Shown here: positions 7,008 through 20,453 of the stretch, in pieces | Position numbering within the stretch: position 1 is the first letter of the stretch | How the letters are laid out: each line of letters starts with the position of its first letter | Virus record (IMG/VR): IMGVR_UViG_3300046011_000019 | Span: 1-20,453 of that record | Reading direction: 5' to 3' (one strand) | Source of the DNA: a virus | Length of the DNA: 20,453 bases | Program-made: the position numbers and the translations under genes | Notes under the pieces: generated by a model | What the model saw: only the letters and a program-made list of their open reading frames with translations | Database searches by the model: none | Told to the model about the DNA's origin: nothing

Positions 7008-7982
7008 ATGGCTACAGCAGCTTATCCTGGAGGTAGTTCCTCCATTGTCAACAAGACCAATGCAGATAAATTTATTCCTGAGATTTGGTCTGACGAAATC
7101 ATCGCTTCCTACAAAAAGAATCTTGTTATGGCGAACCTCGTCAACAAGATGACGATGCGTGGTAAGAAAGGCGATACCCTTCATATTCCTAGTCCTACCC
7201 GTGGTTCAGCAGCCGCTAAAGCAGCTAACACGGCTGTTACCATTCAGGCTAACGTTGAGTCTGAAGTGCAGGTTACCATTAACAAGCACTACGAATACTC
7301 ACGTTTGATTGAGGACATCGTTGAAGTTCAGGCTCTTGCCTCACTTCGTCGTTTCTACACTGAAGATGCTGGTTATGCTCTTTCAGCACAGGTTGACACT
7401 GATCTGATCCAGATTGGTCGTCTGTTCAATGGCTCTCATGCCGCTGGTGCTACTGGTGACTACAGTGTGTCCGGTACAACCACTGCCTACATCGGTGGTG
7501 ATGGTACTACAGCCTTCGTTGGTGGTGCTGGTGCTGGAAACGCAACTGCATTGACTGATGCTGCTATTCGTCGTACGATCCAGCGTCTTGACGATGCTAA
7601 CGTACCTCAAGATAGCCGTTACTTCGTTATTCCTCCTGTTGCTCGTAACACCATGATGGGTCTTGCTCGTTTTACTGAACAAGCCTTTGTTGGTGAGCAG
7701 GGCGGTAACAACACCATCCGTAACGGTCAGATCGGTGATGTATACGGTGTTAAAGTGTTTGTTAGCAGCAACGCTGACACTGCTTATGCTTCTTCTGGTA
7801 CGGCTCCTCGTGCTTGCTTGATGTTCCACAAGGATGCATTGGTCCTTGCAGAGCAGATGGCTGTTCGCTCACAGGCTCAGTACAAGCAAGAGTATCTCGC
7901 TACGCTGTACACTGCTGACACGCTGTACGGTGTTGCAGAGCTGCGTAACGATGCTGGTATTGCTCTGATCATTCCTAGCTAA
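7008..7982 (+). CDS. Major capsid protein
   Basis: This is a 324-residue protein, close to T7 gp10A (345). The N terminus (about residues 20-60) has the 'FIPEIWSDEIIASYKKNLVMANLVNK' pattern. It continues with 'GDTLHIPSPTRGSA' and the 'KHYEYSRLIEDI' strand typical of HK97-fold coat proteins of podo- and pelagiphage groups. The middle has Gly-rich loops, and the C-terminal region ends in 'TLYGVAELRNDAGIALIIPS'. It would form the icosahedral shell on the scaffold. Of 16 arginine codons I count 15 CGT and one CGC and no AGA/AGG, unlike most neighbours, which indicates selection for high expression. A UUCG-loop terminator follows directly. I see no slippery heptamer at the 3' end that would yield a T7-like frameshifted minor capsid form. 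Confidence 0.92.
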   Translation: MATAAYPGGSSSIVNKTNADKFIPEIWSDEIIASYKKNLVMANLVNKMTMRGKKGDTLHIPSPTRGSAAAKAANTAVTIQANVESEVQVTINKHYEYSRLIEDIVEVQALASLRRFYTEDAGYALSAQVDTDLIQIGRLFNGSHAAGATGDYSVSGTTTAYIGGDGTTAFVGGAGAGNATALTDAAIRRTIQRLDDANVPQDSRYFVIPPVARNTMMGLARFTEQAFVGEQGGNNTIRNGQIGDVYGVKVFVSSNADTAYASSGTAPRACLMFHKDALVLAEQMAVRSQAQYKQEYLATLYTADTLYGVAELRNDAGIALIIPS

Positions 7983-7993
7983 TTAGAAGCACT

Positions 7994-8022
7994 AGAGAGG
8001 CTGCTTCGGCAGCTTCTCTTTT
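7994..8022 (+). terminator. Rho-independent terminator with UUCG tetraloop
   Basis: The arms AGAGAGGCTGC (7994-8004) and GCAGCTTCTCT (8009-8019) form an 11-bp stem with one G-U pair, closed by the extra-stable C(UUCG)G tetraloop at 8005-8008. A short T run (8019-8022) and AT-rich sequence follow. It lies 11 bases after the capsid stop. The T run is short, so partial read-through to the next genes is likely. Confidence 0.85.
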
Positions 8023-8036
8023 ATATAGAGGTCACA

Positions 8037-8198
8037 ATGGCTACATTCAGATGTATTTGGTCTAACAACCTACTCAACGTAGAATATGAGTTTGATATTG
8101 CTGAGATGCGTAGACATCCAGATTATGAAGAAGTAAAAGAAGAACAAGAAAAGAAAACTGAAAAGGTCCAAAAGGTTAAGAATACCAAAGAGGATTGA
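8037..8198 (+). CDS. Small conserved phage protein downstream of capsid
   Basis: This is a 53-residue protein. It begins 'MATFRCIWSNN', contains 'EYEFDIAEMRRHPDYEEV', and ends in a Lys/Glu-rich, probably helical or disordered tail. Short proteins of this pattern (a C in the first strand, then an M-x-x-H-P-x-Y motif) often follow capsid genes in marine podophages as far as I recall; no function is known to me. AGAGG at 8027-8031 provides a ribosome-binding site, directly behind the terminator stem. The next fibre gene starts 5 bases after its stop. The real product begins at the ATG at 8037; the short length makes it easy to overlook. Confidence 0.65.
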   Translation: MATFRCIWSNNLLNVEYEFDIAEMRRHPDYEEVKEEQEKKTEKVQKVKNTKED

Positions 8199-9428: not shown

Positions 9429-9629
9429 ATGGCCCTACAAGCTGATGAGCAAGTTAAACAAGCAGGAGATGCATTATCAATCCTAACAGTGGTAGGTACG
9501 TTAGCAGAGCTACTACCGGCCATTGCAGCAGTGCTAACGATTGTATGGACTGCAATTAGGATATTCGAAACAGATACCGTTCAATGTATGTTCGGAAGGA
9601 GAAAGAAAAATGCCGATGGTAGCGAATAA
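9429..9629 (+). CDS. Small membrane protein, holin-like
   Basis: This is a 66-residue protein. Residues about 15-47 form one long or two short hydrophobic segments ('LSILTVVGTLAELLPAIAAVLTIVWTAIRIF'). A polar E-T-D-T-V and a basic C terminus G-R-R-K-K follow, giving the charge pattern of small phage holins. The 'WxAIRIxExxTV' ending is one I associate with small podophage holin-like proteins. It would insert in the inner membrane and help release the endolysin. The lysozyme lies 9 kb downstream beside a second membrane protein, so which one is the true holin cannot be settled here. Its 3' end overlaps the first lysine-rich gene by 20 bases. Confidence 0.6.
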   Translation: MALQADEQVKQAGDALSILTVVGTLAELLPAIAAVLTIVWTAIRIFETDTVQCMFGRRKKNADGSE

Positions 9630-9762
9630 GAAGTTTCCTTACACCGCCAAAGGAAAGAAAGAAGCGGAAGAGTATGCATCAAAGAAGGCTAAGAAGATGC
9701 ATGAGAAGAAAGAATCAAAGTCTATGAAGGCTAAAGAACGTAAGATGGGTTATCCGTCATGA
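9610..9762 (+). CDS. Tiny lysine-rich phage protein 1
   Basis: This is a 50-residue protein with 15 Lys and 1 Arg (32% basic). It starts 'MPMVANKKFPYTAKGKKEAEEY', a recurrent pattern of short phage proteins. The ATG at 9610 is chosen because AAGGAG at 9596-9601 precedes it by 8 bases; longer upstream extensions in frame lack such a site. There is no membrane segment. It begins inside the holin-like gene and ends in a 4-base ATGA overlap with the next tiny gene. It may bind DNA or RNA or be packaged in the head; this is inference from charge and position among structural genes. Confidence 0.65.
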   Translation: MPMVANKKFPYTAKGKKEAEEYASKKAKKMHEKKESKSMKAKERKMGYPS

Positions 9763-9917
9763 AACCTAAACCCGCTAAAGTACGTAAAGTTATGAAGGAG
9801 TACAAAGAAGGTACTCTACATAGCGGTAAAGGCGGTCCTGTAGTTAAGTCTCGCAAACAAGCAGTTGCTATCGCTTTGTCAGAGGCTGGTATGTCAAAGC
9901 CTAAGAAGAAGAAATGA
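9759..9917 (+). CDS. Tiny lysine-rich protein 2, DUF6496-like
   Basis: This is a 52-residue protein, 31% Lys/Arg. The core 'VMKEYKEGTLHSGKGGPVVKSRKQAVAIALSEAG' has the layout of the DUF6496 family: a helix, then an L-H-S-G-K turn, then K-x-R-K-Q-A-x-A-I-A-L-S-E-A-G. It ends in P-K-K-K-K. The family is widespread in phages and bacteria and has no established function that I know of. It overlaps the genes on both sides by exactly 4 bases (ATGA), so ribosomes could terminate and restart along the series. The basic tail suggests nucleic-acid contact (inference). Confidence 0.75.
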   Translation: MKPKPAKVRKVMKEYKEGTLHSGKGGPVVKSRKQAVAIALSEAGMSKPKKKK

Positions 9918-10060
9918 AGCAAGGACTATACGCTAACATCCAAGCCAAGCGTAAACGTATCGCTGAAGGCTCTGGTGAGAAGATGAGAAAACCAGGCACT
10001 AAAGGTGCTCCAACAGCAAAAGCATTTAAGGAGGCAGCAAAAACTGCTAAGAAGAAATGA
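9914..10060 (+). CDS. Tiny lysine-rich phage protein 3
   Basis: This is a 48-residue protein, 31% Lys/Arg. It has a start 'MKQGLYANIQAKRKRIAEGSGE' and a middle 'KMRKPGTKGAPTAKAFKEAAKTAKKK'. The L-Y-A-N-I-x-A-K-R-x-R-I and K-P-G-x-K-G-A-P-T motifs recur in short proteins of many aquatic phages; I know no function. It is linked by 4-base ATGA overlaps to both neighbours. The final Lys codons lie in a purine-rich stretch (10047-10057) that leads straight into the next start codon, so coding for the tail and providing a ribosome-binding region may coincide. Confidence 0.7.
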   Translation: MKQGLYANIQAKRKRIAEGSGEKMRKPGTKGAPTAKAFKEAAKTAKKK

Positions 10061-10317
10061 AGAAAGATTCAAGGCTGGAAAGAGCAGGAGTCTCTGGATA
10101 TAATCAACCTAAAAGAACACCAGGACATCCTACGAAATCTCACATTGTTGTAGCAAAGGACGGTGATCAAGTTAAGACGATTCGTTTTGGTCAACAAGGT
10201 GTTAAAGGTTCTCCTGAAGGATCTGCTAGGAATAAAGCCTTTAAAGCTCGCCACGCAAAGAATATTGCTAAAGGGAAGATGTCAGCGGCCTTCTGGGCTG
10301 ATAAAATTAAATGGTGA
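10057..10317 (+). CDS. Small basic phage protein 4
   Basis: This is an 86-residue protein, 23% Lys/Arg. The sequence runs 'ERAGVSGYNQPKRTPGHPTKSH', 'VVAKDGDQVKTIRFGQQGV', and a C-terminal 'FKARHAKNIAKGKMSAAFWADKIKW'. The central beta-like segment and the conserved basic C terminus form a compact conserved phage protein found in many environmental phages as far as I recall; its function is unknown to me. It is the last member of the ATGA-coupled series and lies 5 bases before the tail tube gene. A nucleic-acid-binding or head-completion role is possible but unproven. Confidence 0.75.
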   Translation: MKKDSRLERAGVSGYNQPKRTPGHPTKSHIVVAKDGDQVKTIRFGQQGVKGSPEGSARNKAFKARHAKNIAKGKMSAAFWADKIKW

Positions 10318-19154: not shown

Positions 19155-20453
19155 CTAGATTTCACATACACCGGCTACACAGGCTAGTTGCTGTGCACCT
19201 TCAACGTTATCATCATTTTCCTTAAGCATGTCCCAATTAATGTTTGCTGGCATCTTAGCTAACAAGGATTCATAGTCTTCCTTGCTGCATGTCTCATAAG
19301 GAGCCTGTCGATAAGTGCCCCCATCCATTGGCAGGAATGATACACCAGTACAGATGTCAAAGTTATCGAATACCCAAGCCCCTACAGTAGGCCATTCATT
19401 CTCATTGACTGAGATAGTTACTGAAGGTTTATGTTCGCACCAGTGAAGCTGATACACACGCCATAGCTTAAGATGAGATATAGCATCAACATCATCCCTG
19501 GTAATAGCACCTTCAGGAGCCTTCATAGGAAATGAGAACACTGTAGTGCTATCTGGTCTCATCACACAAGGTTCACTAGGAATACCTTGTTCGATCATAA
19601 ACGCCGTGAGAGGGTCTTTTTTATCTGATCGTACACGCCTAATGTAATACTGGGCATGTTGAGGATGAATGCCAGAAGCAGTGCCACAAAGCTGAGACAC
19701 AGTACCAGAAGGCTTGACGCAAGTGATAGCAGCAGAGACAGGGATATTAAGAGCATTTGCTGTAACTTCATTAGCAATGATTGCTTCATTTTTCAACATC
19801 TCCAATCTTGCTGGTAACGCTTTATCATCAGGATCATTCAGTAGTTTATGATCATAGATACCTGTCAGCGATACACCCAATAGACGCTCTTCAGCGGTGT
19901 TCTTTTCCCAGATCTTACGTAGGTATGGGAAGGTAGTCATTGTGCTCTGCCAAGTACCTAGAATCGATGCTACACGTACTTTGTACATCAAGTCTTGAAG
20001 AGTGTCCGTATCACGAACAATGACCTCTGTGAGGTTACAGAACTGGTAAGGACGAAGGATAATCTCTGAGCAAGGATTCGTACCGAAGTCATGGTTAGGA
20101 TCTCTACGGCCATTAACAGCTGCTTGCTTCTTCGATGCATCTCTGTTAAAGATACCACGTTCACCTGAATGGCTTTCATAGATCGAACACCATTCACGCA
20201 TAAACTGCCCTACTGAAGGCTTTACATCATACACAGCAGAGTTATTAGCAAGGCTACGCTGTCCTTGTTGTTCCCACCATGCCCCTGCTTTAGCGTGTGC
20301 CATACGATCATCACTGAGATCGCTTAAAGAGATCATTGCAGAACGCCGCACACCACCCACAACAACAACCTCCCCGATCTTGCACAGAATATCATGGCAT
20401 TCAAGGGACGACAGACGACGATTTTTGGCCGCTTGGAACTTCCTAATAACAAA
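19155..20453 (-). CDS. nrdJ: Class II (adenosylcobalamin-dependent) ribonucleotide reductase, C-terminal part
   Basis: The frame stays open to the right edge (31 more codons beyond the GTG at 20360), so the gene's start is off-window and 432 residues are visible. It reduces ribonucleoside triphosphates to deoxy forms using a thiyl radical generated from coenzyme B12. 'VVVGGVRRSA' near the start is family-typical. N-P-C-S-E (Cys codon at 20070-20072) matches the N406-C408-E410 active site of the Lactobacillus enzyme. A Cys 11 residues on corresponds to C419, and the C-terminal C-x4-C of 'CVAGVCEI' corresponds to C731/C736. 'CVKPSGTVSQLCG' is the phosphate-binding region. The C119 counterpart should lie outside the window. 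It is convergent with the late genes, so it belongs to another operon, probably for DNA replication. Confidence 0.95.
   Translation of the reverse strand, partial: FVIRKFQAAKNRRLSSLECHDILCKIGEVVVVGGVRRSAMISLSDLSDDRMAHAKAGAWWEQQGQRSLANNSAVYDVKPSVGQFMREWCSIYESHSGERGIFNRDASKKQAAVNGRRDPNHDFGTNPCSEIILRPYQFCNLTEVIVRDTDTLQDLMYKVRVASILGTWQSTMTTFPYLRKIWEKNTAEERLLGVSLTGIYDHKLLNDPDDKALPARLEMLKNEAIIANEVTANALNIPVSAAITCVKPSGTVSQLCGTASGIHPQHAQYYIRRVRSDKKDPLTAFMIEQGIPSEPCVMRPDSTTVFSFPMKAPEGAITRDDVDAISHLKLWRVYQLHWCEHKPSVTISVNENEWPTVGAWVFDNFDICTGVSFLPMDGGTYRQAPYETCSKEDYESLLAKMPANINWDMLKENDDNVEGAQQLACVAGVCEI

Follow-up and report, generated by a model that had tools for sequence, protein, structure and literature searches.

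The internal proteins of phage T4 are small and basic, reside in the head, and come from a locus whose content differs among closely related phages; they carry a capsid-targeting sequence that is cut by the head protease. The island described here, four overlapping genes that we call P1 to P4, resembles them in the small, basic nature of its products and in its variable locus, a likeness drawn from the genes alone. Two protein families also bear on the comparison. P2 belongs by score to DUF6496, a family of unknown function, and P4 leads to Tlr6f (PF19058, DUF5754), which one report describes as ubiquitous yet uncharacterized (PMC12220804). A 2015 study reported Tlr6f from almost all polinton-like viruses, from several virophages and some phages, and from many Megavirales, and saw no detectable similarity to domains of known structure or function (PMC4642659). 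Finally, it has been argued that InPase domains and MuF proteins are packaged and injected (PMC5512222). One portal-InPase-MuF protein, of this polyvalent kind, contains a P4-type domain. P4 itself differs from that architecture in being a single free domain, and P1 to P3 show no link to MuF. None of the four combines several domains with a head domain, as polyvalent proteins do; the relative of P4 in CL131 has several domains.

The window (the whole stretch of DNA analyzed, 20,453 nucleotides) is a 20.5-kb virus DNA record in which a capsid gene (7008 to 7982; phrog_267, major head), a fibre-like gene, P0, P1, P2, P3, P4, and an SU10-type adaptor follow one another. From P0 to the adaptor, all genes lie on the plus strand. 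P0 (9429 to 9629) encodes a 66-amino-acid protein that has a hydrophobic stretch and, by eye, resembles a holin; it had no significant family match in Pfam or PHROG and also stands immediately 5' of the island in the close relatives. The next four genes, P1 (9610 to 9762; 50 amino acids), P2 (9759 to 9917; 52 amino acids), P3 (9914 to 10060; 48 amino acids), and P4 (10057 to 10317; 86 amino acids), agree in start and length with the open reading frames of a first-pass annotation of this DNA, as does their lysine-plus-arginine content, put there at 23 to 32% (32.0, 30.8, 31.2, and 23.3%, respectively). Their net charges range from +10 to +14 and their pI values from 10.0 to 10.7. The adaptor gene 3' of P4 (10323 to 10976), tail-tube A-like, matched PF24175 (SU10_adaptor, 4.2e-16) and phrog_10775 (tail protein, 4.2e-5). 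Elsewhere in the window, a strong terminator-like stem-loop of 11 pairs with a T-rich tail (7994 to 8019) lies 3' of the capsid gene, and a long minus-strand frame (19155 to 20360), ribonucleotide reductase-like by eye, is convergent with the late genes; a promoter scan found 4 candidates versus 7.0 expected.

The suggestion that three of the genes are smaller than gene calling usually admits was only partly upheld in the relatives. Roseobacter phage CRP-4 has both a 50-amino-acid P3 homologue and a 33-amino-acid neighbor annotated, while the P4 homologue of phage SIO1 (L085, 8001 to 8213; 73% identical over 71 residues to the P4 of the window) is unannotated. The CRP-4 neighbor, gp28 (L082, 8616 to 8717), consists of 39% lysine plus arginine, and its gene shares one base with the end of P3.

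Short, lysine-rich frames in AAG/AAA-rich DNA could simply be spurious. Selection was examined among distinct sequences with 70% or more identity to the respective protein of the window (n = 41 for P1, 47 for P2, 62 for P3, and 90 for P4). In the proposed frames, the pN/pS ratios were 0.093 for P1, 0.159 for P2, 0.190 for P3, and 0.176 for P4, while the same DNA read in its two shifted frames gave values of 1.70 to 7.26. The dN/dS ratios were 0.063 for P1 (n = 41), 0.093 for P2 (n = 47), and 0.052 for P3 (n = 62; silent sites near saturation). Because pN/pS is low in the proposed frames and high in the shifted ones, P1 to P4 stand above chance, and their homologues number at least hundreds. 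Substitutions without a synonymous bias among relatives, which the first-pass annotation had named as the pattern that would speak against these genes, were not what we found: the codon-level constraint was strong. Strong purifying selection acts on P1 to P4, which are real genes, and we consider the probability that they are spurious frames to be negligible.

Along similar lines, P3 and P4 remained similar in phages that are otherwise divergent. In 58 loci with a tail gene less than 50% identical to that of the window, the median identity was 0.80 for P4 (17 loci) and 0.85 for P3 (48 loci), with median pN values of 0.11 to 0.14, versus 0.39 for the tail gene, a contrast that is biased because the loci were picked by their similarity to the small proteins. 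Silent differences were of the same order in all three genes (0.75 per site in P4, 0.76 in P3, and 0.72 in the tail gene). Since the silent sites are near saturation, recent transfer was rejected as the source of the high P3 and P4 identity, which speaks for constraint rather than recent exchange.

The genes had been described as chained by identical ATGA overlaps at all four starts. This was correct for the three joints at 9759 (P1/P2, 9759 to 9762, plus strand), 9914, and 10057, while P1 starts at 9610 without an ATGA, 20 nucleotides inside P0, behind its own ribosome-binding site (aaggag). ATGA joints occur at 3 of the 26 junctions among the 27 plus-strand genes of the window, and all three are inside the island. 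A further 4-nucleotide overlap, TTGA (8195 to 8198), would link the fibre-like gene with a 53-amino-acid gene at 8037, provided that a TTG start is used. The ribosome-binding sites of P2 to P4 are weak, and these proteins are probably made by stop-start coupling at the ATGA. The joint is typical of the close group; across the 80 loci fetched with P4, it was found immediately 5' of this gene in only 28. In two loci that lack P2 (L004 and L259), P1 is joined to P3 via GTGA.

A search for the same four-gene order in related phages, proposed as a check, showed that both order and membership differ between them. Among the 80 loci with P4, P3 was found in 35, P2 in 28, P1 in 12, and the tail gene in 26. 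Close relatives had the order P0-P1=P2=P3=P4-adaptor or were one gene short (P1=P2=P4 and P1-P3=P4), and further arrangements included P2=P3=P4, P1=P2=P3, P3=P2, and P2-P1-P3-P4, in a survey that counts some contigs more than once. A conserved four-gene unit was thus rejected. Nor is there a fixed set of four: within 52 distinct relatives, 31 had P2 and P3 in place, 18 had no P3, and 3 had no P2 between P1 and P4. In one of these three (L311), P2 is located upstream of P1; this locus is a long and distant row. On a tree of the flanking DNA, the presence of P3 changed at least 8 times, a count that was equal on three alignments, and that of P2 changed 3 times, once in L311; the tree is quick and unrooted, so that gain and loss are not separable, and 15 of its 49 inner branches are starred and 19 poorly supported. 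Even very near neighbors differ in gene content (L278/L280, L283/L284, and L261/L264). This single-gene turnover weakens the idea, advanced in the first-pass annotation, of a set of proteins made in fixed ratio.

The junctions left by this turnover are precise. In all 18 P3-minus loci, P2 is joined to P4 exactly at the ATGA and in frame, and in all 31 P3-plus loci, 11 to 14 identical bases are found in register at both ends of P3, versus 5 to 8 in a control pair of joints. In the window, they form a 14-bp direct repeat, AAGAAGAAATGAAG, with one copy at the P2/P3 joint (9906 to 9919) and the other at the P3/P4 joint (10049 to 10062), both on the plus strand. The copy at P2/P3 encodes the lysine tail of P2, the ATGA, and the beginning of codon 2 of P3. 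Three lysines or arginines at the C terminus were present in 112 of 181 P2 and 117 of 204 P3 frames, versus 5 of 115 for P1 and 0 of 175 for P4 (counts of all frames found, some contigs being counted repeatedly). We infer that the repeat, composed of lysine tail, ATGA, and next lysine codon, lets recombination remove or insert P3, an exchange that would leave the neighbors and their coupling intact. Units can also merge or keep other company: a single frame encodes both P3 and P2 in L144 and L149, and in some phages other small basic families are neighbors of the units.

As for the individual proteins, P1 had no significant Pfam or PHROG family and no match in the phage collection. P2 is a DUF6496 protein (PF20106; 48.7 bits versus a cut-off of 24; 1e-12), as the first reading had supposed from resemblance, and its homologue in Vibrio phage pA2SJ1 overlaps the portal gene by 4 nucleotides. 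P3 corresponds over nearly its full length to phrog_16028 (1.8e-27), the function of which is listed as unknown; its model consists of two helices (pLDDT, 79; pTM, 0.50). In cyano- and pelagipodoviruses, P3 is found amid genes for scaffold, capsid, and tail tube. Uncultured phage S28-C3 has a 49-amino-acid P3 homologue, without an annotation of its own, between the scaffold and capsid genes (L467, 2995 to 3144). P3 is carried by S-CBP4 and was matched in P-SCSP1u, and in P-SCSP1d, a sibling of the latter, it is adjacent to DUF6321. In Roseobacter phage CRP-810, the 52-amino-acid homologue gp49 (L086, 8216 to 8374) bears the annotation "ribonucleotide reductase A subunit," and similar labels are attached to P3 matches in Synechococcus phages S-B28, WH11-B, and 7B11-B, possibly a spreading misannotation. 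Kinship of P2 with P3 and of P4 with P2 was rejected (profile comparison, 0.2% each). A reservoir of P3 on plasmids was likewise rejected, since none matched at E values up to 0.1. The profiles of P2, P3, and P4 had no match among PDB sequences at E values up to 1, and the literature collection searched contained no publication under the names DUF6496, PF20106, DUF6321, DUF3008, and PF19846.

P4 could be placed in a wider context. It corresponds over nearly its full length to phrog_7595 (3.9e-36; function listed as unknown) and weakly to phrog_220, a minor head protein and DNA pilot family (2.9e-5). Against PF19058 it scored 12.4 bits (E, 0.16), below the curated cut-off (27.4), and its best single Pfam match, the tail tube initiator PF23980 (14.7 bits; E, 0.025), was also below cut-off. 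Among 38 members of the P4 family, 18 matched PF19058 at E values up to 1 (best, 3.4e-4), versus 16 for PF23980 (best, 0.0032) and 8 for DUF6321 (best, 0.0057). Four proteins from large viral genomes (phage NCTB and contigs of 200 to 261 kb, L461 to L463) pass the PF19058 cut-off with 37.4 to 43.8 bits, and the P4 alignment matched them in a profile-profile comparison at 97.9% (E, 5e-13; 75 columns), while comparisons between other basic profiles, used as controls, reached 9.9% at most. P4 and Tlr6f proteins are small solo viral proteins with an (F/Y)G motif, an RH-type arginine, and two C-terminal tryptophans in common; R65, H66, W80, and W86 of P4 are invariant. Judged by the profile comparison, P4 belongs with the Tlr6F superfamily, taken as wider than the Pfam model, as a free-standing phage version of the domain.

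The AlphaFold2 model of P4 (pLDDT, 90.7) combines a beta hairpin with helices; no chain among 537 from the PDB reached a Z score of 2, and Foldseek gave a match to a 95-amino-acid Tunisvirus protein (E, 1.7e-3; TM score, 0.63). P4 occurs in Roseobacter phages CRP-4, SIO1, and CRP-810, Celeribacter phage P12053L, and HMO-2011, among others. That it might be a gene of cultured cells was rejected after a pattern-based scan of a genome collection, in which 56 of 59 loci bore titles opening with MAG, two came from one bin, and one from an uncultured isolate assembly. DUF6321 was rejected as a proven relative (profile comparisons of 9.9%, with an E value of 0.0032, and 3.4%), although the weak Pfam cross-matches in 8 of the 38 P4 relatives keep a link possible. 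Two DUF6321-like proteins (L104, 6162 to 6410, and L167, 1003 to 1254) have a YGQAG motif resembling the FGQQG of P4; the profile comparison was unconvincing.

The location of P4-type domains in larger proteins points to the phage head. The CL131 protein contains a portal domain (60 to 419), a P4-type domain (534 to 604), an InPase domain (631 to 752), and a Mu F domain (991 to 1103). In ICP1 gp126, Peptidase_S78_2 (36 to 160) is followed by a P4-type domain (187 to 261), and in qdvp001 gp133 and Aeromonas phage PhAER-3 the P4-type domain comes first and Peptidase_S78_2 second. PHROG also supports the fusions in CL131, ICP1 gp126, and qdvp001 gp133. These fused domains are distant relatives of P4 (36.5 to 49.9 bits). 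The XkdF-type protease (PF14550) was matched only by fused proteins; P4 had no such match at E values up to 1. ICP1 gp126 is named capsid protease in several records and hypothetical in others, and it is not named in the parts of the main text of the ICP1 literature available. In Vibrio phage GR11A, gp110 (L092, 4899 to 5255; 118 amino acids) contains a P4-type domain but bears the name Peptidase_S78_2 domain-containing, a domain that Pfam does not find in it; the label was perhaps taken from fused relatives. The one literature collection searched yielded no publication linking Tlr6F to XkdF or portal proteins.

For P1, P2, and P3, no fusion to a known head protein was seen, and their link to the head consists of position and of fusions among small modules. 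Pfam identifies P3-DUF6321 fusions at three loci (L121, L136, and L163), and inspection by eye adds two more (L140 and L143); a DUF6321-like gene is found at most 1.5 kb away in 65 of 216 groups. A DUF6321-like stretch also forms the C terminus of a 427-amino-acid protein of the cyanomyovirus S-B43, recorded as T4-like structural protein GC0119, and the small module that joins P3 in the fusions of L121 and L136 begins two PHROG families labeled virion structural protein; these labels are the databases' own. The same applies to Escherichia phage 121Q gp51 (L465, 2501 to 3292), labeled structural protein, the N terminus of which is the MPSKS... module that is fused to P3 in L121. This module, possibly a targeting tag, recurs in jumbo phages, with gp165.1 as the match in phiKZ.

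The neighboring genes gave a mixed picture. Downstream (60 of 108 proteins examined; family counts overlap), a tail protein family accounted for 13 neighbors, portal for 6, terminase for 5, and PhoH and exonuclease families for 2 each, and upstream (60 of 104, with the same overlap), terminase led with 9, and HNH endonuclease families had 2 each. The earlier proposal of basic proteins of the structural region, perhaps bound to packaged DNA, fits the fusions of P4-type domains to head-protease and portal-MuF proteins and the scaffold, capsid, and tail-tube surroundings of P3. It fits less well in CRP-4, SIO1, and P12053L, where P4 is near phoH; in these phages, as in HMO-2011, no annotated head gene adjoins P4. 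The main texts of the papers found contained no detection of P1 to P4 or a homologue in virions, and the term mass spectrometry is absent from the text of the P-SCSP1u cryo-EM paper.

Given this evidence, we propose, with about an even chance of being right, that P1 to P4 are head-associated, probably packaged, DNA-binding accessory proteins. The island would be a modular set of strongly basic proteins, probably made late, that act inside phage heads and are most likely co-packaged with DNA. Since head-protease and portal-MuF proteins carry the Tlr6F/DUF5754 domain, P4 probably works in the procapsid interior, and the incorporation of its relatives into virus-shell proteins suggests that the small proteins work inside the virus particle. 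Charge alone is insufficient to show DNA binding, and a protease-linked P4-type domain may be shed on maturation. Alternatively, they could be helpers of procapsid assembly or encapsidation, partners of scaffold, protease, or portal that need not be kept in the mature virion. The presence of the P4-type domain on either side of the XkdF-type protease (before it in qdvp001 and PhAER-3, after it in ICP1) and the overlap of the P2 homologue with the portal gene in pA2SJ1 are consistent with such helpers, but P2 and P3 are singly absent among very close relatives, which suits an accessory role better than an assembly-essential one, and we regard this alternative as unlikely.

The proteins could also bind nucleic acids outside the virion or take part in host takeover, and merely ride in the late operon. 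Their strong positive charge would be expected, island-type genes adjoin psbA in S-CBP4, phoH in CRP-4, and lysozyme in CRP-810, and HMO-2011, SIO1, and P12053L have P4 with no annotated head gene beside it; against this, the P4-type domain is fused to head proteins and capsid, portal, or tail-tube neighbors recur elsewhere, making such a role, in our judgment, somewhat less probable again than that of assembly helpers. Co-injected effectors or anti-defense modules, along the lines of the polyvalent-protein idea, would be swapped because hosts differ. The rapid single-gene turnover and the portal-InPase-MuF protein with its P4-type domain, an architecture of that kind (PMC5512222), are compatible with them, but P3 and P4 are highly conserved across divergent phages (in a biased sample), unlike a fast arms-race protein, and we think them quite improbable.

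Packaged head accessory proteins thus remain our preferred reading, and it carries a meaning for both the domain and the island. Tlr6F spans viruses of bacteria and eukaryotes, and its fused phage relatives offer a concrete location for it, the procapsid interior. The island is an example of the clean swapping of tiny genes, which would be possible because the signals for coding, coupling, and recombination share the same 14 bases. Since cultured phages carry these genes, both the head role and the clean gene swapping are directly testable. More tentatively, Tlr6F/DUF5754 may be a capsid-interior module, and the island of these aquatic phages a string of exchangeable basic beads, the joints of which serve both translation coupling and recombination; each phage might thereby assemble its own set of DNA-associated head proteins.
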